The notes beneath the pieces are model-generated. The model saw only the letters and a list, made by a program, of their open reading frames with translations, did not search any database and had not been told where the DNA came from. Positions 1 through 9,818 of a stretch of 64,000 nt of DNA are shown in pieces. The DNA is from Luteolibacter yonseiensis. Its GTDB lineage: Bacteria; Verrucomicrobiota; Verrucomicrobiia; Verrucomicrobiales; Akkermansiaceae. Positions within the stretch are counted from its first letter, which is position 1, and every line of letters begins with the position of its first letter. Position numbers and translations under genes: made by a program. Location: the NCBI RefSeq assembly GCF_016595465.1, contig NZ_JAENIK010000012.1, positions 806,001 to 870,000 on the forward strand. Reading direction: 5' to 3'.

Positions 1-1
1 C

Positions 2-241
2 GAGGAATCAGACATCGCGGCGGCATTGTCGGATGCGGGCAGACACATCGGGCACGTTCATTTCGCGGACTCCAACAGGCAGGCGATGGGCTTCGGCCAT
101 ACGAACGCGGCGGCGGTGATCTCCGCGCTGCGTGAGATCGGCTACCCCGGCTACCTGTCCGCGGAGATCCTTCCCCTGCCCGATCCGGAAACCGCCGCCC
201 GCCAGACGATCTCCATCATCCGCGAACTGTCGGCATCATGA
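2..241 (+). CDS. Sugar phosphate isomerase/epimerase, TIM-barrel (C-terminal part only)
   Basis: The open frame enters from the window edge and ends at TGA 239-241, so only about 79 C-terminal residues are visible. They contain a strand ending HVHFADSNRQ followed by a G-F-G-H segment and a final barrel strand (YLSAEILPLP), the pattern of xylose-isomerase-like TIM-barrel sugar isomerases and epimerases that bind a metal and a sugar at the barrel mouth. The stop overlaps the next start (ATGA, 238-241), so it is translationally coupled to the aldo/keto reductase and belongs to the same sugar operon. Substrate cannot be read from this fragment; an epimerase feeding the L-galactose-type route is an inference. 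Confidence 0.75.
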   Translation, partial: EESDIAAALSDAGRHIGHVHFADSNRQAMGFGHTNAAAVISALREIGYPGYLSAEILPLPDPETAARQTISIIRELSAS

Positions 242-1176
242 AAACCCGCACGCTTGGCAAGACGGGCATCGAGCTGCCGATCCTCTCCTTCGGAGCGTCG
301 TCGCTCGGGGCGGAGTTCCGTTCCATCACTCTGGAGGAAGCCATGCTTTCGACGAAGACAGCCATCGATCTCGGCATGAACTTCATCGACACCTCGCCAT
401 TTTACGGGCGCGGCATGTCGGAAATCATGCTTGGCCTGGGCCTCAAGGGAATTCCACGCGGGAGCTATCTGTTAGGCACCAAACTGGGACGTTACTCGGA
501 CATCCACTTTGATTTCTCGGCAAGGCGTGTGGAGGAATCCGTACACGTCTCGCTGCAAAGGCTCGGCACGGATCATCTGGATATCCTTTTGCTGCATGAT
601 GTGGAATTCGTGCCCCTCGCACAAATCTGGGAGGAAACCCTGCCCGCCGTCCTGAAACTGAAGCGGCAGGGAAAGGTCCGCGCGGTGGGATTTTCCTGTT
701 ATCCGCTCAAGACCTTTCATTCGGTGCTGGATCACGTGGAGGATGAGATCGACTGCGTGCTTTCCTATAATCGACACACCTTGCAGAACACGTCATTTGC
801 GGAAGATCTGCTCCCGCGCCTGGAGGCGAAATCCATCGGCGCGATGAATGCCGGTCCGTTCTCGGCGAGGCTTCTGACGAATGCCGAGTTGCCCGCATGG
901 CTGAAGGAGCCGGAGGAAGTGAAGGCCGCCGCACGGGCCGCCGCGAAGCTCTGCGCCGGCCGCGGTGTGGATCTCGCGCAACTGGCGCTCCAGTTTTCCT
1001 GCGAGCATCCTGGTCTGGCGACCACCATCGCCGGTTCCGCGAATCCGGCCAACATCCGCAAGTGGGCGGAATGGCTCGAACAACCCATCGACCGCGAACT
1101 GCTGGCCGACGTGCTCGCCATTTTCTCCCCGGTCAGGAACATCGGCCACACCGAGGGCCTTCCGGAAAACAACTGA
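238..1176 (+). CDS. Aldo/keto reductase, probable L-galactose/L-fucose-type aldose 1-dehydrogenase
   Basis: A 312-residue, full-length aldo/keto reductase predicted to oxidise an aldose at C1 with NAD(P)+ to give a lactone. The catalytic tetrad is visible: Asp51 and Tyr56 in FIDTSPFYG, Lys82 in LLGTKLG and His120 in DILLLHD. The NAD(P)-binding end appears as TTIAGSANPANIRKW near residues 270-285. Start ATG 238 overlaps the upstream stop and the gene's own TGA overlaps the next ATG (1174-1178), so it lies in a tightly coupled operon. In Bacteroides an AKR of this kind works with a COG3618 lactonase and an L-galactonate dehydrogenase; all three partners occur here. L-fucose or another 6-deoxy sugar is an alternative substrate. 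Confidence 0.85.
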   Translation: MKTRTLGKTGIELPILSFGASSLGAEFRSITLEEAMLSTKTAIDLGMNFIDTSPFYGRGMSEIMLGLGLKGIPRGSYLLGTKLGRYSDIHFDFSARRVEESVHVSLQRLGTDHLDILLLHDVEFVPLAQIWEETLPAVLKLKRQGKVRAVGFSCYPLKTFHSVLDHVEDEIDCVLSYNRHTLQNTSFAEDLLPRLEAKSIGAMNAGPFSARLLTNAELPAWLKEPEEVKAAARAAAKLCAGRGVDLAQLALQFSCEHPGLATTIAGSANPANIRKWAEWLEQPIDRELLADVLAIFSPVRNIGHTEGLPENN

Positions 1177-2207
1177 TGCAAGCCATCCAATTCACCGCGC
1201 CTCGGGAGATCAATCTGGTCGATCTGGAGGAACCCGCCGTCCCGAAACCGGGCGAGGCTCTCGTCCGCACGCACCGCATGGGCATCTGCGGCACGGACCT
1301 CGCATGTTACCTCGGAAAATTTCCCTTCTTCGCCTATCCCCGCACACCGGGCCATGAACTCGGACTGGAAGTCGTGGCGGTGGCGGAGGACGTGACGAAT
1401 GTGAAACCCGGCGACAAGTGCTCGCTGGAACCTTATGTGAATGATCCGGACTCCGCCACCTCGCTCAAGGGAGCACAGAATTGCTGCCCCGGCGTTCAGG
1501 TCATCGGCGTCCACAACAATGGCGGCCTGCGCAAGGGAGTCTTCGCTGTGCCCGCCCGCAAGCTGCATCCGGGCAACGATCTCACCTACGACCAGCTCGC
1601 GCTCGTGGAAACACTGGCCATCGGCTATCATGCGGTGCAACGCGGGAACCCCGCGGTGGGAGAAACCGTGCTCGTCATCGGGGCGGGCCCCATCGGCCTC
1701 GCTTGCCTGGAGTTTTTAAAACTGATGGAGGTGACGACCATCGTCATGGACATGGTGGAAAGCCGGCTGGATTTCTGTCGGGAAAATCTCGGCATCCGCC
1801 ACGCCATTCCATTCAAGGCGGATGGCTCGCATCTGGCGGAATTGGAAAACCTGACCGATGGCCGGCTCGCCGATGTCATCATCGATGCCACGGGAAACCC
1901 GGTGTCCATGTCCACCTGCTTCAACTATGCCGCCTTCACCGGCCGTGTGGTTTACGTCGGCATCACCACCTCGGAACTCACGTTCCCGCACGCGCCGGTT
2001 TTCCACCGCCGCGAGCTGACCCTCATGGCCTCGCGGAACGCCATGCCGGAGGATTTCCGCCATATCATCCGGCTCATCCGCGAGGGAAAGATCGATACCG
2101 ACGCATGGATCACCCACCGGATTTCCTTCGATGAAGTGCCTTCGAAGTTCGCGGATTTCACCGATCCGTCGCTTGGCGCGATCAAGGCGGTCATCGAAGT
2201 CCGATAA
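1176..2207 (+). CDS. Zinc-dependent alcohol dehydrogenase, probable L-galactonate 5-dehydrogenase type
   Basis: A 343-residue medium-chain dehydrogenase. Catalytic zinc ligands are visible as Cys38 (GICGTD), His60-Glu61 (PGHE) and Glu145 (VETLAIG); the NAD-binding Rossmann motif is VIGAGPIG at 167-174. The usual four-cysteine structural zinc lobe is not intact: the region around residues 82-105 has only Cys82 and the adjacent Cys103-Cys104. Start ATG 1176 overlaps the stop of the aldo/keto reductase; earlier in-frame codons lie inside that gene. In the neighbourhood of a lactonase and a tagaturonate epimerase the best guess is oxidation of L-galactonate to D-tagaturonate. That substrate is inferred from context; the family call is solid. 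Confidence 0.85.
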   Translation: MQAIQFTAPREINLVDLEEPAVPKPGEALVRTHRMGICGTDLACYLGKFPFFAYPRTPGHELGLEVVAVAEDVTNVKPGDKCSLEPYVNDPDSATSLKGAQNCCPGVQVIGVHNNGGLRKGVFAVPARKLHPGNDLTYDQLALVETLAIGYHAVQRGNPAVGETVLVIGAGPIGLACLEFLKLMEVTTIVMDMVESRLDFCRENLGIRHAIPFKADGSHLAELENLTDGRLADVIIDATGNPVSMSTCFNYAAFTGRVVYVGITTSELTFPHAPVFHRRELTLMASRNAMPEDFRHIIRLIREGKIDTDAWITHRISFDEVPSKFADFTDPSLGAIKAVIEVR

Positions 2208-2264
2208 CCCGTTTGGTCCCTTCCACCTGTCCGCACCGCCGGATAAAACCCTTCCGAACCATTC

Positions 2265-3515
2265 ATGAAAACCTGCCCCAAATATACCTTCGGCGTCGGC
2301 GATCGCTTCGCCAACGGCGCACATGCCCAACTCGCCGCCTTCATCGAGGCGAAGAAACTCGGCATCGACATCGTCCCAGTATGGAACAAGTCGAACCGCG
2401 AGCACAACATCATCGGCTCCGAGCCGGTCCAGACGCGCGAGGCGGCGGACAAGGCGGTGGCGGATCTCGGATGGACGGATGAATACCTCCTGGATGCGGA
2501 CCACATCAACCTGACCACCGTGGACCGCTTCGTCGCGCCCTGCGATTTCTTCACGCTCGATGTGGCGGAAGACATCGGGGAAGCCGCCGATCCCTCGGAC
2601 GTGGCGGCCTTCATCGCGAAGCACCCGGAACTCATCGGCACCGTCGCCATCGAGGGCATCGACACTCCGTTTGAAATCACCCGTGCGGACGTGGAGAAGA
2701 CCGCCAACCAGTTCCTCAAGGCCACCCAGAAGGCCGCTGCGATCTATCAGCACATCGTCGCGGCGAAAGGCGGGGTGGACAACTTCGTGACCGAGGTTTC
2801 CATGGACGAGACCGACAGCCCGCAGACTCCGCCCGAGCTGTTGATCATCCTCGCCGCCATCGCCGACCAGGGTGTGCCGATCCAGACCATCGCTCCGAAG
2901 TTCACCGGACGCTTCAACAAGGGAGTTGATTATGTGGGCGATCCCGCACAGTTCGAAAAGGAGTTCAACGACGACCTCGCCGTCATCGCCCACGCCATCA
3001 GGACCTATGGACTGCCAGCCGGGCTGAAGCTCTCCGTGCACTCGGGGTCGGACAAGTTTTCCATCTATCCGATCATCAGGAAAGCCATCCAGCGCACCGG
3101 AGCCGGGCTGCACATCAAGACGGCGGGCACGAACTGGCTGGAGGAAATCATCGGTCTGGCGGAGGCCGGTGGTGCCGGACTCGCGCTGGCGAAGACGATT
3201 TATGCGAAAGCGTTGGAGAAAAAAGCCGCCCTTTGCGAACCCTACGCCACCGTCATCGACATCAATGACGCCAACCTCCCGTCCGCCACGGAAGTGGAAG
3301 GCTGGAGCAGCACCCGTTTCACCGACGCACTGCGTCATGATCCCTCGAACCCCGGTTACAACGCGGACCTCCGGCAGCTTCTGCACGTCGGTTTCAAGAT
3401 CGCCGCCCAGCTCGGACCGGAATACATCCAGGCCTTGCACGACAACTCGGCCGTTGTTGCGAAAAATGTGACGGGAAACCTGTTGGAACGTCACATGAAG
3501 CCGCTTTTCCTGTGA
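2265..3515 (+). CDS. Tagaturonate epimerase family protein (UxaE-type)
   Basis: A 416-residue protein recognised as the UxaE family, which interconverts D-tagaturonate and D-fructuronate at C3 in bacteria such as Thermotoga. Likely active-site segments are DADH (77-80), TEVSMDET (176-183), SVHSGSDK (257-264) and KTAGTNW (285-291). Glu, His, Asp and Lys residues in conserved positions suit a metal-dependent epimerase. It lies 57 bp after the dehydrogenase that would make its substrate. The epimerase would move material into the fructuronate -> mannonate -> 2-keto-3-deoxygluconate route; the reductase and dehydratase for those steps are not in the window. No Shine-Dalgarno is seen before ATG 2265. 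Family assignment is fairly sure, exact substrate less so. Confidence 0.75.
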   Translation: MKTCPKYTFGVGDRFANGAHAQLAAFIEAKKLGIDIVPVWNKSNREHNIIGSEPVQTREAADKAVADLGWTDEYLLDADHINLTTVDRFVAPCDFFTLDVAEDIGEAADPSDVAAFIAKHPELIGTVAIEGIDTPFEITRADVEKTANQFLKATQKAAAIYQHIVAAKGGVDNFVTEVSMDETDSPQTPPELLIILAAIADQGVPIQTIAPKFTGRFNKGVDYVGDPAQFEKEFNDDLAVIAHAIRTYGLPAGLKLSVHSGSDKFSIYPIIRKAIQRTGAGLHIKTAGTNWLEEIIGLAEAGGAGLALAKTIYAKALEKKAALCEPYATVIDINDANLPSATEVEGWSSTRFTDALRHDPSNPGYNADLRQLLHVGFKIAAQLGPEYIQALHDNSAVVAKNVTGNLLERHMKPLFL

Positions 3516-3585
3516 CAGGAAGCCACAAGGGCCGCAAATGTTCGGGAAGAAGACCGCCAAGGATTCCTGTTATTCCCGGTTCTGT

Positions 3586-3613
3586 TTGACAAGTGCGGGT
3601 AATGGCTTCTCAT
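3586..3613 (+). promoter_or_regulatory. Candidate sigma-70 promoter before the receiver gene
   Basis: A perfect TTGACA (3586-3591) is followed after 16 bases by TCTCAT (3608-3613), which matches TATAAT at 4 of 6 positions. A transcript from here would begin near 3620, downstream of the alternative ATG 3602 and upstream of ATG 3635, and would let the receiver gene be expressed apart from the sugar operon. Weak -10 match; no experimental support. Confidence 0.3.
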
Positions 3614-3634
3614 AGCCAAAGCCCGGCCCTAACA

Positions 3635-4051
3635 ATGACCACCAACACCGCTTCTTCTCAGGACCACACGCCCGTTCAAACCGAGGTCCTTGTCGTCGAT
3701 GACGACAAGCATACGCGTGATATCCTCCGCCTGATGCTCATCTCCCAGGGCTTCGCCGTTGAAATGGCGGAGAATGGGGCCGAAGCGCTCAAGCGGCTCG
3801 AATCACGTGACTTCGGCCTGGTGATCACGGATCTGTTCATGCCGGAGAAGGATGGAATCGAGACCATCCGCGAAATCCATGCCAAACGTCCTGAGCTGAA
3901 AATCATCGCGATCTCCGGAGGAGTGGGCGGGATCGGCAGGGACTGCCTCACCGTCACCAAGTATCTCGGAGCATCCGCCACCTTGAAAAAGCCTTTCGAT
4001 CATGACACCCTGGCTGAGACCATCAAGACGGTCCTGACAACCGGCAAATGA
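3635..4051 (+). CDS. Stand-alone response-regulator receiver domain (CheY-like)
   Basis: A single REC domain of 138 residues with no output domain. Acidic pair Asp22-Asp23 (VVDDD), phospho-acceptor Asp66 (LVITDLFMP), Ser94 (AISGG) and Lys118 (LKKPF) are all present, so it should be phosphorylatable. Start ATG 3635 is chosen because the extra N-terminal residues from ATG 3602 or GTG 3593 look unstructured and a candidate promoter overlaps them; those starts remain possible. It lies between the epimerase and lactonase genes of the sugar operon, 119 bp after one and 111 bp before the other. No cognate kinase is adjacent; the nearest hybrid kinase in the window begins at 9820. It probably works by protein-protein contact. 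Confidence 0.85.
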   Translation: MTTNTASSQDHTPVQTEVLVVDDDKHTRDILRLMLISQGFAVEMAENGAEALKRLESRDFGLVITDLFMPEKDGIETIREIHAKRPELKIIAISGGVGGIGRDCLTVTKYLGASATLKKPFDHDTLAETIKTVLTTGK

Positions 4052-4162
4052 GCCTGCGGCCGGTCCATCCGACCGGGGCAGGCCCGTTGAAAGATCGTTT
4101 CCGGATCCACCCGCATCAATTCCTCGCCCGTCCGGAAGGAACGTCCACTCCTTGTTTTCCGC

Positions 4163-4990
4163 ATGATCGACTCGCACCACCACCTCTGGAGCTACTCCGC
4201 CGGGGAATACCCGTGGATTCCTCCCGGCTCGCCTCTGGCGAACGACCATCTCCTCACGGAGTTGGAACAAGCCACGGCCTCCGCAGGGGTGGATGCCACC
4301 GTGGTGGTGCAGGCGCGGCAGGTGGTGGAGGAGTCGCACCGGCTGCTTTCCCTGGCGGACCGGTCGGAACTCATCGCCGGGGTTGTCGGCTGGGTTCCTC
4401 TTGTGGATGAAAATGTCGCCGAGCCGCTCGCCCGCCTCGCGGCACATGACAAGTTCAAGGGCGTGCGACATGTTCTGCAGGATGAACCGGATGACTATTT
4501 CCTGCGGGACGATTTTCATCGCGGCCTGTCGCTGCTTCCCGATCTGGACCTGCGCTACGACCTGCTGGTTTACCAAAACCAGCTCCCGGCCTCCATCCGG
4601 CTGGTGGATCGCCAGCCGGACCTGGGCATCATCATCGATCACATCGCCAAACCCCGGATCCTCAAAGGCAGGATCGATCCCGCTTGGAAAGCAGGCATGA
4701 CGGAGCTTGCCAAACGCGAGAACATCCTTGGCGTTAAAATCTCGGGCATGGTGACGGAAGTGTCGGACCCGGAGATCGATGAAGACACGCTGCGCGCCTA
4801 CTTCGAGGAAACCCTCCGGATCTTCGGCGTGGACCGCCTGATGTTCGGCACGGACTGGCCGGTGTGCCTGCTTCGTGTGGATTCCTGCCAAACGTGGACG
4901 GAAATGTTCCGCCGTTTCACCGCCTCCTTGAGCAGTGATGAAAAAGCCGCCGTCGGGCATGACAATGCCGCGCGGATCTATGGTCTTTAA
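4163..4990 (+). CDS. COG3618 amidohydrolase, probable sugar lactonase
   Basis: A 275-residue amidohydrolase-superfamily protein of the COG3618 group, whose known members hydrolyse L-fucono-1,5-lactone or L-galactono-lactones to the free acid. The opening IDSHHHLW gives the H-x-H metal pair (His5, His7). The last barrel strand carries RLMFGTDWPV with the catalytic/metal Asp near residue 233, and KGVRHVLQ and IIDHIAKP resemble strands of the same family. Start ATG 4163 fits the usual IDxHxHxW beginning. Its location between an aldose dehydrogenase and a KDPG aldolase supports a lactonase in sugar-acid breakdown. The L-galactono versus L-fucono preference cannot be decided by eye. Confidence 0.82.
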   Translation: MIDSHHHLWSYSAGEYPWIPPGSPLANDHLLTELEQATASAGVDATVVVQARQVVEESHRLLSLADRSELIAGVVGWVPLVDENVAEPLARLAAHDKFKGVRHVLQDEPDDYFLRDDFHRGLSLLPDLDLRYDLLVYQNQLPASIRLVDRQPDLGIIIDHIAKPRILKGRIDPAWKAGMTELAKRENILGVKISGMVTEVSDPEIDEDTLRAYFEETLRIFGVDRLMFGTDWPVCLLRVDSCQTWTEMFRRFTASLSSDEKAAVGHDNAARIYGL

Positions 4991-5065
4991 ATCCTGCACT
5001 TTCCAAAGGACACCGCCATTTCCATTGTCATCCCGAGAATTTCCTTCAACTTCGAAACCCATCCC

Positions 5066-5698
5066 ATGATTGACCGCATCCTCGCCAAACGCATTGTTCC
5101 CGTCGTTGTTCTCGACCGTGTCGAATCCGCCGAGCCGCTTGCGGAGGCGCTGTTGGAGGGGGGGCTCGACATCATGGAAATCACGTTCAGGACGGCGGCG
5201 GCGGAGGAGTCCATCCGGCGCATCGCCGCGCGGTTTCCGGAGATCCTGTTAGGGGCCGGAACATTGCTTGAAAAGGAACAGGTCCGGCGTGCCCGCGACG
5301 CGGGTGCCGTGTTCGGCCTGGCACCGGGCCTGAACCCGGCCATCATCGCCTCGGCGAAGGAGATCGGCCTGCAATTCTCCCCCGGGGTCATGACTCCCAG
5401 CGATGTGGAACAGGCGCTGTCGCTCGGTTGCGAACTGTTGAAATTTTTCCCGGCGGAGGTCGCGGGCGGTGTGGACATGCTCAAGGCCCTCGCCGGTCCA
5501 TACGGTCATACAGGTGTCCGGTTCATCCCGACCGGTGGCGTGTCTTCCGGCAATCTGTCGGCCTATCTCAAGCTGCCTGTCGTCGCCGCCATCGGCGGTT
5601 CGTGGATGGTGGACAAGCAGTTGGTGAACGATGGGAAGTGGGCGGAAATCACTCGCATCACACGCGAGGCTCTTGCCGCCGCCGCGGAAGCCCGCTAA
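5066..5698 (+). CDS. eda: 2-dehydro-3-deoxy-phosphogluconate (KDPG) aldolase / 4-hydroxy-2-oxoglutarate aldolase
   Basis: A 210-residue class I aldolase of the KDPG/KHG family that splits 2-keto-3-deoxy-6-phosphogluconate to pyruvate and glyceraldehyde-3-phosphate. Glu38 and Arg42 in MEITFRT and the Schiff-base Lys126 in LLKFFPAE are present, together with GAGT (63-66) and the phosphate-binding IPTGGV. Length is typical for the family. It follows the lactonase by 75 bp and precedes the ROK kinase by 10 bp, consistent with the last step of a hexuronate/sugar-acid operon. The paralogous galactonate-type aldolase (KDPGal) is an alternative. Confidence 0.88.
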   Translation: MIDRILAKRIVPVVVLDRVESAEPLAEALLEGGLDIMEITFRTAAAEESIRRIAARFPEILLGAGTLLEKEQVRRARDAGAVFGLAPGLNPAIIASAKEIGLQFSPGVMTPSDVEQALSLGCELLKFFPAEVAGGVDMLKALAGPYGHTGVRFIPTGGVSSGNLSAYLKLPVVAAIGGSWMVDKQLVNDGKWAEITRITREALAAAAEAR

Positions 5699-5708
5699 CA
5701 CCGTTCCC

Positions 5709-6566
5709 ATGATCGCAGGAATCGAACTGGGCGGGACGAAGACCGTCGTCGCCATTGGCACGCCTGAAGGGAAGGTCGTGGAAGAGTTCCGCTTCCCCAC
5801 AACCCACCCGGAAGAGACGCTTGCCGTTGCGGCGGAATGGCTGCGCGCGAGAGGCACTCCGGGGGACATCTGCATCGCCGCATTCGGTCCGGTGGGGGTG
5901 GTGAAAGGGCGGGAGAATTATGGAAAAATCCTCGCGACACCGAAGGCCGGTTGGTCGGACTTCTCGCTGACAGGCGCGCTGGCGGAAGTATTTCCCGAGG
6001 CCCGCTACTCCATCGACACCGACGTGAACGCGGCCGCCCTGGCGGAAGCACGGATCGGCGCGGCGGCCGGGCTGGATGACGTCGCCTACATCACCATCGG
6101 CACCGGCATCGGAGCGGGGATCCTGTCCGGAGGACATCTGATCCACGGTTCACTTCATCCTGAGACGGGTCACCTGAAGGTGCCGCGTCATCCCGAGGAC
6201 ACGTTCAAAGGCGTATGCCCGTTTCATGCGGACTGTCTGGAGGGCTTGGCAAGCGGCCCGGCCATCGCGGCCCGGTGGGGGAAACCGGCTGATGAACTGC
6301 CGGTCGGCCATCCCGCCTGGGACATGCAGGCGTGGTACCTCGCGCATGGGATCCTTTCCTTGCTTGCCATCGTTTCTCCGGAGAAGGTCATCGTCGGCGG
6401 AGGGGTCTCCCAGGTGGCGGGATTGCATGAAAAGATCAACAGGCTGCTTGTGGAAATCGGCGCGGGGTATTTCCCCGTTCTGTTGACCGATGGTGACTAC
6501 GTCGTCCCGCCCGCCCTCGGCCAGGAAGCGGGAATATGCGGGGCGTTTCTGCTGACGGGTTCTTGA
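5709..6566 (+). CDS. ROK family sugar kinase, fructokinase-like
   Basis: A 285-residue ROK kinase. The N-terminal ATP-binding motif is GIELGGTKT (4-12), the catalytic Asp is probably Asp105 in IDTDVNAAALAE, and the ROK zinc site is seen as TGH (His155) plus Cys170-x2-His173-x2-Cys176 within GVCPFHADC. The extended zinc segment resembles the Bacillus YdhR/GmuE fructokinase branch, so fructose or mannose is the likely substrate. In this operon it could instead phosphorylate a keto-deoxy sugar acid before the aldolase; 2-keto-3-deoxygluconate kinases are usually PfkB-type, so that is only a possibility. Start ATG 5709 lies 10 bp after the aldolase stop. Confidence 0.82.
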   Translation: MIAGIELGGTKTVVAIGTPEGKVVEEFRFPTTHPEETLAVAAEWLRARGTPGDICIAAFGPVGVVKGRENYGKILATPKAGWSDFSLTGALAEVFPEARYSIDTDVNAAALAEARIGAAAGLDDVAYITIGTGIGAGILSGGHLIHGSLHPETGHLKVPRHPEDTFKGVCPFHADCLEGLASGPAIAARWGKPADELPVGHPAWDMQAWYLAHGILSLLAIVSPEKVIVGGGVSQVAGLHEKINRLLVEIGAGYFPVLLTDGDYVVPPALGQEAGICGAFLLTGS

Positions 6567-7712: not shown

Positions 7713-8528
7713 GTGACGGAATCCGCCATTTTTCACTGGGCGTCGCTGACCCACAGCGGCTCCCGGAAACCCCGCAATGACGATTCGCTCATCGCCTTCG
7801 CCTCCGGAGCGCTCGGTGCGGAAACATTACCCGCCGAGGGCAGCCTGCCCCTTGCCCAGCATGATCTCGTCTTCGCCGTTTCCGACGGCATGGGCGGAGG
7901 AAATGCCGGTGACATCGCGTCCTCAACCATCGTCACCCAGATGGCGGAGATCATCCCGGAAACGTTCAAGGCGGCTGCCGCGGGCTTTTTCCCCGATTCC
8001 ATCAGCCACCTTGGAGACGCATTGCGCAGCATCCACGAACAGATCAACGCCGCCGCCAATGGTTGCCCGGACAAGAGTGGCATGGCCGCCACGCTGGCGC
8101 TCACCTGGTTCACTCCGGAAAACCTCTACCTCGCCAATGCAGGGGATTCGCGCATCTACCGCTCGCGCGGTGGCGTGCTGGAGCAGCTCAGCCGAGACCA
8201 CACCGCCGCCTGGGGGCAGTGGAAACGGGGGGAGATCAGCGAGATCCAATACCGGAACCACCCCCGCCGCGCCGCGCTCTATGAAGTCGTCGGCGGGGGC
8301 CATGCCCGGGTGAATCCCCACTTCGCCGCCGTATCCTACGAACCGGGCGACTGTTTCCTCGTCTGCTCGGACGGCCTCATCGACGGTTTGTGGGAACGCC
8401 ACATTTCGGAAGCCCTCGCCGGTTGCACGGATTGTCCGATGGCCACCGCCGAAAAACTCCTGAAACGCGCCGTGGACAACTCGGGTATCGACGACACGAG
8501 CCTGATCGTGATCTCGGTGATCGCCTGA
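7713..8528 (+). CDS. PP2C-family serine/threonine protein phosphatase
   Basis: A 271-residue PPM/PP2C phosphatase with every metal-binding motif visible: NDDSL near residue 23, AVSDGMGGG near residue 56, NAGDSRIYR, SRDHT, VCSDGLIDGLW and the final DDTSLIVI. It removes phosphate from Ser/Thr residues using two Mn/Mg ions; no membrane segment is present, so it is cytoplasmic. The start is taken as GTG 7713 because the frame opens 16 bp after the kinase-like gene and the protein then begins like PP2C enzymes; no in-frame ATG fits. Co-transcription with the mini-kinase suggests they act on the same targets. Confidence 0.88.
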   Translation: MTESAIFHWASLTHSGSRKPRNDDSLIAFASGALGAETLPAEGSLPLAQHDLVFAVSDGMGGGNAGDIASSTIVTQMAEIIPETFKAAAAGFFPDSISHLGDALRSIHEQINAAANGCPDKSGMAATLALTWFTPENLYLANAGDSRIYRSRGGVLEQLSRDHTAAWGQWKRGEISEIQYRNHPRRAALYEVVGGGHARVNPHFAAVSYEPGDCFLVCSDGLIDGLWERHISEALAGCTDCPMATAEKLLKRAVDNSGIDDTSLIVISVIA

Positions 8529-8693
8529 AACACCCCCACCCTCCTCCCCCCGGCCTCCCGCAGCACTTTTTGCGGCAATCAACTTTTTGGCTTTCCTATT
8601 CCTTGGTTGGGTGGAGGATCAGACAAAACATTTCTAACAGAAACTGATGCGTGGTTTTCTTCAGATCCGCCCCACCTTCTCCCTAGAATTTCC

Positions 8694-9818
8694 ATGAAAT
8701 TACTTCAAACCCTCCTCCTGCCCTCCCTCGAATGGAAAAACGACCACGGGCGGCTCGCTCCGGCTGACGCCGAACTGGTGTTTGCTTTTGGAATCCGCGA
8801 AATCATCGAGTCTCCCGATATTTATCAGGAGCTGAAAAAACGATTTCCTGCCGCCCACATCGCCCTCGCCTCGACCTCCGGCAACCTGGCGGACCAGATC
8901 ATCGATGACAGCGGAGTGCTCTGCACCGCTCTCCGCATGGAAAAGTCCCGCACCCGTGCGGAGGTTGCGAATCTATCATCCCACCCGGACCTCGAAACCT
9001 TGTGCGCCCACCTCGCCGACGTGCTCGCGGCGGACGATCTCCGTCACGTATTCGTGCTTTCGGACGGCAGTTCCGTCAACGGCACGGAATTGAGCAACAC
9101 ATTCAACAGCAAGCTTCCACCTCAGGTGACACTCAGCGGCGGTCTGGCCGGAGACGGCACCGCCTTCAGCAAGACCGTCGTGGGCCTGGACAGCGTCCCC
9201 ACGACCGGAACTATCGTCGCCATCGGGTTTTACGGAAATGTGGAACTGGCCTTCGGCAGCGCGGGCGGCTGGAGCGGATTCGGCCCGGAACGCCTGGTCA
9301 CCCGGTCCGAGGGCAACTGCCTCCACGAGTTGGACGGGCAGCCGGCACTCCATCTTTACAAAACCTACCTTGGCAGCCAGGCAGCCGGCCTGCCAGCCTC
9401 CGCCCTGAGGTTCCCCCTCCGGGTGTCGCAGGGAGAAAACACCCCCTTCATCGTCAGGACCATCCTCTCGATCGATGAGGATGCGAACACCATGACTTTC
9501 GCCGGTGACGTCCCGGAAGGGGCCAAGGTCCAGCTCATGCGGGCGTCCTATGAGGATCTCATCGATGGCGCGCAATCGGCGGCGGAACAAGCGGAACTGC
9601 CCGGAGCGGAACTGGTGCTCTGCGTCAGCTGCGTCGGCCGGAGGATCGTGCTGGGCCAGCGCACCGAGGAGGAACTCGAGAGCGTGCGGGCGGCCTTCGG
9701 GGACTCTCCGGTGATCGGCGGATTCTATTCCTACGGCGAACTGGCCCCCTCCGGGCATCAACTGGAAAGCCAGCTCCACAATCAAACCATGACCATCACC
9801 AGTTTCCGGGAAGTCTGA
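8694..9818 (+). CDS. FIST-domain (FIST_N/FIST_C) sensor protein
   Basis: A 374-residue soluble protein that reads as FIST_N followed by FIST_C. FIST_N includes LAFGIRE-like strands, ASTSGNLADQ and LSGGLAGDG; FIST_C includes DGQPALHLYKTYLG near residues 210-225 and the closing VIGGFYSYGELAPSG. FIST domains are ligand-binding sensory modules; the Pseudomonas NosP protein is a heme-binding FIST nitric-oxide sensor encoded beside a hybrid kinase. Here the stop (9816-9818) is followed one base later by the ATG of a hybrid histidine kinase, so the two are almost certainly a sensor-kinase pair. Whether this one binds heme, an amino acid or something else cannot be seen. Start ATG 8694 omits an unlikely upstream extension. 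Confidence 0.82.
   Translation: MKLLQTLLLPSLEWKNDHGRLAPADAELVFAFGIREIIESPDIYQELKKRFPAAHIALASTSGNLADQIIDDSGVLCTALRMEKSRTRAEVANLSSHPDLETLCAHLADVLAADDLRHVFVLSDGSSVNGTELSNTFNSKLPPQVTLSGGLAGDGTAFSKTVVGLDSVPTTGTIVAIGFYGNVELAFGSAGGWSGFGPERLVTRSEGNCLHELDGQPALHLYKTYLGSQAAGLPASALRFPLRVSQGENTPFIVRTILSIDEDANTMTFAGDVPEGAKVQLMRASYEDLIDGAQSAAEQAELPGAELVLCVSCVGRRIVLGQRTEEELESVRAAFGDSPVIGGFYSYGELAPSGHQLESQLHNQTMTITSFREV

Follow-up and report, generated by a model that had tools for sequence, protein, structure and literature searches.

How would a bacterium that carries the entry genes of L-galactose catabolism dispose of the resulting D-tagaturonate if an epimerase gene, and not those for a reductase and a dehydratase, lies beside them? 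This question is raised by a row of genes at the left end of a 64,000-nucleotide stretch of DNA from Luteolibacter yonseiensis (the window), which covers positions 806001–870000 of contig C12 in a genome of 5.73 Mb and 13 contigs (G000; below, G numbers denote genomes, L numbers genomic loci and C numbers contigs of G000). The positions of the open reading frames (ORFs) and their profile matches place all three families of the Bacteroides-type L-galactose entry, an aldo/keto reductase (AKR), a COG3618 lactonase and a zinc alcohol dehydrogenase (Zn-ADH), in this one row, together with a member of the UxaE family. We consider the row likely to be an L-galactose catabolic cassette, probably serving L-glucose as well, in which UxaE acts at the tagaturonate step. 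Among characterised systems, the nearest counterpart is the pathway by which Luteolibacter sp. LG18 degrades both L-glucose and L-galactose (lguABCDEF, lguG and lguH; PMC12632266). A sequence-only reading of the same DNA had named the AKR, Zn-ADH, UxaE-family protein, COG3618 lactonase and 2-keto-3-deoxy-6-phosphogluconate (KDPG) aldolase, and Pfam and NCBIfam matches of the ORFs bear out their places and families. To that chain we add the IolO-type gene, the comparison with LG18, the exchange of UxaE for UxaA/UxaB among relatives and a UxuB–UxuA pair encoded elsewhere in the genome.

The row consists of the following genes:

1..241, + strand: 3' end of the gene for a xylose-isomerase-like TIM barrel of the IolO type, LguG-like and putatively a 5-keto-L-gluconate/D-tagaturonate epimerase (PF01261, 137.4 bits; NCBIfam IolO, 235 bits against a cut-off of 300)
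238..1176, + strand: AKR, putative L-galactose 1-dehydrogenase, LguA-like (PF00248, 153.5 bits; PDB 9w6y, E 3e-86)
1176..2207, + strand: Zn-ADH, putative L-galactonate 5-dehydrogenase, LguD/LgoD-like (PF00107/PF08240; 37% identity to E. coli LgoD)
2265..3515, + strand: short-clade UxaE-family epimerase of 416 aa, putative D-tagaturonate/D-fructuronate epimerase (PF16257, 180.6 bits; AlphaFold2 fold)
3602..4051 (start at 3593 or 3602), + strand: CheY-like receiver protein (PF00072)
4163..4990, + strand: COG3618 amidohydrolase, putative L-galactono-lactonase (PF04909, Amidohydro_2; NF052480, 221.7 bits; PDB 4dlf, E 2e-40)
5066..5698, + strand: KDPG aldolase, LguE-like by family (TIGR01182, 250.6 bits against a cut-off of 156)
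5709..6566 (start probably at 5709), + strand: ROK family sugar kinase, ScrK-like fructokinase, LguF-like by family (NF045550, 209.6 bits against a cut-off of 400)

In the proposed pathway, whose substrates and flux are predicted from these families and their setting, the AKR would convert L-galactose into its lactone, the COG3618 lactonase would open L-galactono-lactone and the Zn-ADH would oxidise L-galactonate at C-5 to D-tagaturonate, from which the UxaE-family protein would form D-fructuronate. A D-mannonate oxidoreductase (UxuB) of the short-chain dehydrogenase/reductase (SDR) type and UxuA would then lead via D-mannonate to 2-keto-3-deoxygluconate (KDG), which a kinase would turn into KDPG, the substrate to be split by the aldolase of the cassette. 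Should both dehydrogenases also take L-glucose, the IolO-type epimerase would bring the resulting 5-keto-L-gluconate to D-tagaturonate.

The UxaE-family protein and the entry enzymes

The window protein exceeds the curated cut-off of PF16257 (27.1 bits) by a wide margin. Matches to UxaE, found in 108 of 288 genomes of the phylum, fall into two sets, one 43–87% identical over nearly the full length in most rows and the other ∼31–42% identical and mostly made up of ∼500-aa frames; the window protein belongs to the former, short set, and its relatives in named genomes include those of Haloferula rosea and a Luteolibacter metagenome-assembled genome (MAG). Its AlphaFold2 model (mean predicted local distance difference test score 94.9) matches the Cohnella UxaE entries with template-modelling (TM) scores of 0.74–0.82 (0.82 for 6ila) and a Thermotogota relative with 0.79–0.82. 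Structure match and alignment show a class II aldolase-like TIM barrel with the catalytic Glu and Asp. These residues, E46 and D79, are invariant in 30 aligned sequences and were paired with Glu126 and Asp159 of Cohnella by a manual count on the alignment, assuming a one-residue offset; the catalytic roles of Glu and Asp in Cohnella UxaE are those given in PMC11194214. We therefore regard the window protein as a putative D-tagaturonate/D-fructuronate epimerase.

All five of the best solved-structure relatives of the AKR are named L-galactose dehydrogenases, in line with the substrate proposed for it earlier, and it is 44–47% identical to the AKRs that adjoin UxaA/UxaB in four relatives; its likeness to LguA is one of family, drawn from these two groups of proteins. 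Among NCBIfam models, the Zn-ADH fits best to PRK10083, a model that covers E. coli LgoD, but with 151.8 bits it stays under the cut-off of 376; its 37% identity to E. coli LgoD extends over 342 columns. For the lactonase, the nearest named family is L-fucono-1,5-lactonase (NF052480, cut-off 400), and neither this family nor the match to 4dlf settles its predicted sugar. The IolO-type protein is classified by its best named family, IolO (5-keto-L-gluconate epimerase), whose cut-off it does not reach.

The IolO-type gene begins at L002:11438, ∼560 bases to the left of the window edge, with a divergent AraC-type regulator gene further left. Its end overlaps the AKR start by ATGA, and the AKR stop overlaps the Zn-ADH start by TGATG. 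A scan for promoters and terminators returned about as many sites as in shuffled sequence. The orphan CheY-like receiver gene between UxaE and the lactonase was not found in any of the 21 other family cassettes compared (1/22) and probably lies outside the pathway.

UxaE and UxaA/UxaB replace each other beside the AKR gene

We surveyed 60 genomes of the family, counting an AKR at E values of up to 1e-30. Thirty had the AKR, 27 had UxaE (among them G316, with a distant match of 86 bits, and G288, G327 and G330, with partial ones) and 24 had both. The UxaB/UxuB-type family PF08125 was present in 13 of the 60 genomes and in none of the 27 with UxaE. Six genomes have the AKR but no UxaE: five of them (G178, G251, G314, G322 and G329) carry UxaA and UxaB beside the AKR gene, and the sixth, G312, has an AKR at 37% identity. 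Loci were fetched from every genome with both genes except G288, where they lie on fragments. In 22 of these 23 genomes the two genes are on the same strand and at most ∼1.7 kb apart, which argues for a pairing beyond chance; the exception, G215, has AKR–ADH–IolO on one contig and UxaE–lactonase on another. UxaE and UxaB/UxaA occupy the same gene setting and replace each other across genomes, and their mutual exclusion beside the AKR gene agrees with the proposal that UxaE substitutes for tagaturonate reductase and altronate dehydratase.

The exchange is seen at close range in G322, whose AKR, ADH and lactonase are 80, 76 and 62% identical to those of the window and which has UxaB/UxaA and no UxaE. 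An AKR tree was built from 59 rows (55 of them different, with loci listed separately for one genome each counted), of which 52 lie near UxaE, five near UxaA/UxaB and two near neither. The UxaA/UxaB label needs two changes on this tree: G322 is nested among UxaE rows, in the eight-row subgroup to which the window AKR belongs (support 97/92), and the other four rows form a clade of their own (100/100), although deep joins are unsure owing to long branches. A possible third exchange was noted in G172, where an AKR–UxaE fusion (L075:9538–11031, − strand) lies beside a tagaturonate reductase scoring over its cut-off (8025–9239, − strand). In this fusion, part of a different kind of AKR runs in frame into the second half of UxaE, a half in which the two catalytic residues are missing, as if UxaE had been lost naturally there.

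Among the 22 family cassettes, IolO is present in 19, the ADH in 18, RbsD in 13, the lactonase in 10, KDPG aldolase in one and UxaA/UxaB in none. The aldolase had been described as closing the route; its family assignment holds, but with a single occurrence in 22 cassettes it is not a fixed member. Four loci from one genus (L129, L135, L144 and L145) keep IolO, AKR, UxaE and the lactonase and are devoid of the ADH. In L123–L126, the gene between AKR and UxaA, where the lactonase would be expected, belongs in L124 (8646–9296) to the PF04199 cyclase family and is possibly an unrelated replacement of the COG3618 enzyme.

The best 80 UxaE loci listed from named genomes, a sample that includes some of the family-survey genomes, comprise 29 near an AKR, 14 near UxaC, none near both and 37 near neither (20, 9, 0 and 13, respectively, among the 42 with full flanks), and KDPG aldolase adjoins the cassette in one of the 80 (L186). 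Among the matches listed, the AKR setting extends to the Planctomycetota, with Candidatus Laterigemmans baculatus (L258) having the row AKR–ADH–UxaE–SDR–IolO–lactonase. The SDRs of L258, L215 and L228 all exceed the NF006132 D-mannonate oxidoreductase cut-off, and in L215 and L228 the SDR follows UxaE, tying UxaE to D-fructuronate as its product. In L215:9317–11256, from an Acidobacteriota MAG, the oxidoreductase is in turn followed by a sugar-acid kinase, whose best models include those of KDG and 2-keto-3-deoxygalactonate kinases, below cut-off. Clustering of neighbours over 41 loci yielded AKR, ADH, lactonase and IolO in addition to a Gfo/Idh/MocA protein, many of the clusters being shadow frames. 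The Gfo/Idh/MocA cluster (by Pfam; representative L044:7685–9022), found within ∼3 kb of UxaE in L040, L043, L044, L050, L053 and L071, is possibly another fructuronate reductase.

Substrate and outlet of the proposed pathway

L-galactose appears to be the likeliest substrate of the cassette, with L-glucose as a possible one: the gene logic of the L-galactose entry route suggested earlier is well supported, but the sugar itself is deduced from it, and L-glucose may be used too because an LguG/IolO-type epimerase belongs to the cassette. The presence of this epimerase in most family cassettes, and the requirement for lguG in LG18 just for growth on L-glucose, would also fit L-glucose or another L-hexose as the natural substrate, with L-galactose secondary; given that LguA prefers L-galactose 40-fold by kcat/Km and that L-glucose is presumed by the same authors to be absent from nature (PMC12632266), we view this as rather unlikely. 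Less likely still is that UxaE serves the breakdown of D-galacturonate via UxaC and adjoins the L-galactose genes by history only. G000 does encode UxaC, and 14 of the best 80 UxaE loci listed lie near this gene, but in G000 it is on a different contig (C13), and neither the single-strand association of UxaE with the AKR in 22 of 23 genomes nor its mutual exclusion with UxaB/UxaA beside the AKR fits such an account. UxaE could, for its part, serve both routes.

We give the least credence to the cassette handling L-fucose (6-deoxy-L-galactose), with UxaE acting on a 6-deoxy keto-acid. It would agree with the best named family of the lactonase and with UxaE relatives in L041, L042 and L063 that lie with FucU-, FucP- and GH29-like genes (in L041, FucU and FucP exceed their NCBIfam cut-offs and GH29 its Pfam cut-off). 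However, the AKR of these loci is of another kind (25% identical to the window's in L041; L042 and L063 carry relatives of the L041 protein), the nearest solved structures to the window AKR are L-galactose dehydrogenases, LguA is inactive on L-fucose (PMC12632266) and a 6-deoxy product would offer no C-6 phosphorylation site for the KDPG aldolase route. The three loci, which combine a short UxaE with a lactonase and an LgoD-like ADH in addition to the fucose-related genes, are in their own right possible oxidative L-fucose or L-galactose loci with UxaE; a search of PDB with the L041 AKR gave no match at E 1e-20.

For the L-galactose cassette as proposed, the genome provides the next two steps. 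The uxuA and uxuB genes that the sequence-only reading had suggested looking for are side by side in locus L117 on C11: the SDR D-mannonate oxidoreductase (NF006132, 327.2 bits, cut-off 281) adjoins UxuA (TIGR00695, 462.8 bits, cut-off 199.6), so that D-fructuronate can reach KDG. An SDR with mannonate oxidoreductase activity, UxaD of Thermotoga maritima, is described in PMC5673643. A search of G000 for PF08125, the tagaturonate reductase type, had zero matches, and UxaA/UxaB was rejected as a parallel outlet. The single PF04295 gene of G000 (L147, C11:1263222), away from the cassette, is best named galactarate dehydratase, below cut-off, and no reductase partner was recognised near it. Another SDR, ∼1 kb to the left of the IolO-type gene (L002:9720–10520), was rejected as a fructuronate reductase, as it fits PRK06523 and not D-mannonate oxidoreductase. 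For the KDG kinase, the counterpart of LguH in LG18, a weak search of 10 genomes with the E. coli protein KdgK as query (threshold E 1e-8) found matches in G313 only; there was none in G000, where the gene had also been proposed for a search, nor in G251, which has LG18-type genes, so that nothing follows from the result in G000.

Several observations weigh against this pathway, the main one being that no D-fructuronate outlet was found for most relatives. A full-length UxuA match was found in just two of the 24 AKR- and UxaE-bearing genomes, G000 and G296, and is missing from the other 22 (G215 has a weaker partial PF03786 match); SDRs at least 73% identical to that of G000 were found just in G000 and G215. 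Haloferula rosea KCTC 22201 (L190), for instance, has the row RbsD–IolO–AKR–ADH–UxaE–lactonase and gave no match to PF03786. ManD was rejected as the outlet in such relatives: a search of 28 genomes with PF13378 gave 32 matches in 19 genomes, and of the eight enolase-superfamily proteins classified (L153, L154, L159, L160, L162, L172, L173 and L180, from six genomes including the UxaA/UxaB-type G322) none scores high enough for ManD. Two of them pass the cut-off of another family, L154 that of galactonate dehydratase and L180 that of hydroxyproline dehydratase; L162 and L172 resemble, by eye, L-fuconate dehydratases. Moreover, in the stretches fetched, four of the 22 family cassettes are without the ADH and 12 without the lactonase, and the nearest solved UxaE relatives are just 22–26% identical to the window protein in the structural match.

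A more speculative possibility, which we hold only tentatively, is a stereochemical funnel, in which a loose dehydrogenase pair followed by IolO-type and then UxaE-type epimerases would bring several L-hexoses (L-glucose, L-galactose and perhaps L-gulose), as 5-keto acids, to D-fructuronate. L-hexose scavenging would then be common in Verrucomicrobiota and Planctomycetota, with another outlet in the many relatives where no UxuA was found. If the L-galactose cassette is as we propose, the tagaturonate node of L-hexose catabolism would be modular, the same entry genes being joined to either of two outlets; the short UxaE clade would have a defined role, the Luteolibacter L-glucose/L-galactose pathway would extend to more Verrucomicrobiota and Planctomycetota, and a missing enzyme step would be indicated in the relatives without UxuA.

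Comparison with known systems

The window protein shares its family and the catalytic Glu and Asp with UxaE of T. maritima and Cohnella laeviribosi, and its fold with the Cohnella entries, but has 416 aa against their ∼490, is 24–26% identical to Cohnella UxaE in the structural match and is encoded beside L-galactose genes, whereas theirs lie beside hexuronate genes. With the L-galactose pathway of Bacteroides vulgatus the window has in common an AKR, a COG3618 lactonase and a zinc ADH leading to D-tagaturonate. This pathway, reportedly described by Hobbs in 2014, is not known to have a UxaE step. Its genes BVU_0219 and BVU_0222 are cited in PMC12632266.

According to PMC6353982 and PMC7953866, D-tagaturonate has two outlets in D-galacturonate catabolism, either to altronate or by an epimerase to fructuronate and mannonate. 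The same choice arises here, although D-tagaturonate is formed there from D-galacturonate via UxaC. The passages of open-access papers that were examined (e.g. from PMC11194214, PMC7700177, PMC6003095 and PMC5385347) yielded no link between UxaE and L-galactose, the outlets being described for D-galacturonate. In the L-gulonate pathway of Haemophilus influenzae (GulD, UxuB and UxuA; PMC5788505), dehydrogenase-derived D-fructuronate likewise goes by UxuB and UxuA to KDG, but the starting sugar acid is L-gulonate and there is no epimerase.

The LG18 pathway is matched by family in the window counterparts of LguA, LguD, LguG, LguE and LguF, and by a divergent regulator, AraC-type in the window genome; LguR of LG18 is reportedly AraC-type as well. 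The differences are that the window cluster holds a lactonase gene and that its IolO gene lines up with those of the dehydrogenases. In LG18, lguG lies beside rbsD; the RbsD-like gene of the 13 family cassettes is not found in that of the window. LguG, an IolO relative, converts 5-keto-L-gluconate to D-tagaturonate (PMC12632266). Since an LG18 mutant in lguF, the fructokinase gene, has no growth defect (PMC12632266), the ROK kinase of the window is probably dispensable for the pathway. The central difference is that D-tagaturonate passes in LG18 through a tagaturonate reductase (LguC) and an altronate dehydratase (LguB) (PMC12632266), in whose stead the window has UxaE. With reasonable confidence, we view the window cassette as the LG18 lgu pathway with LguC/LguB exchanged for UxaE, a published route with one altered step.

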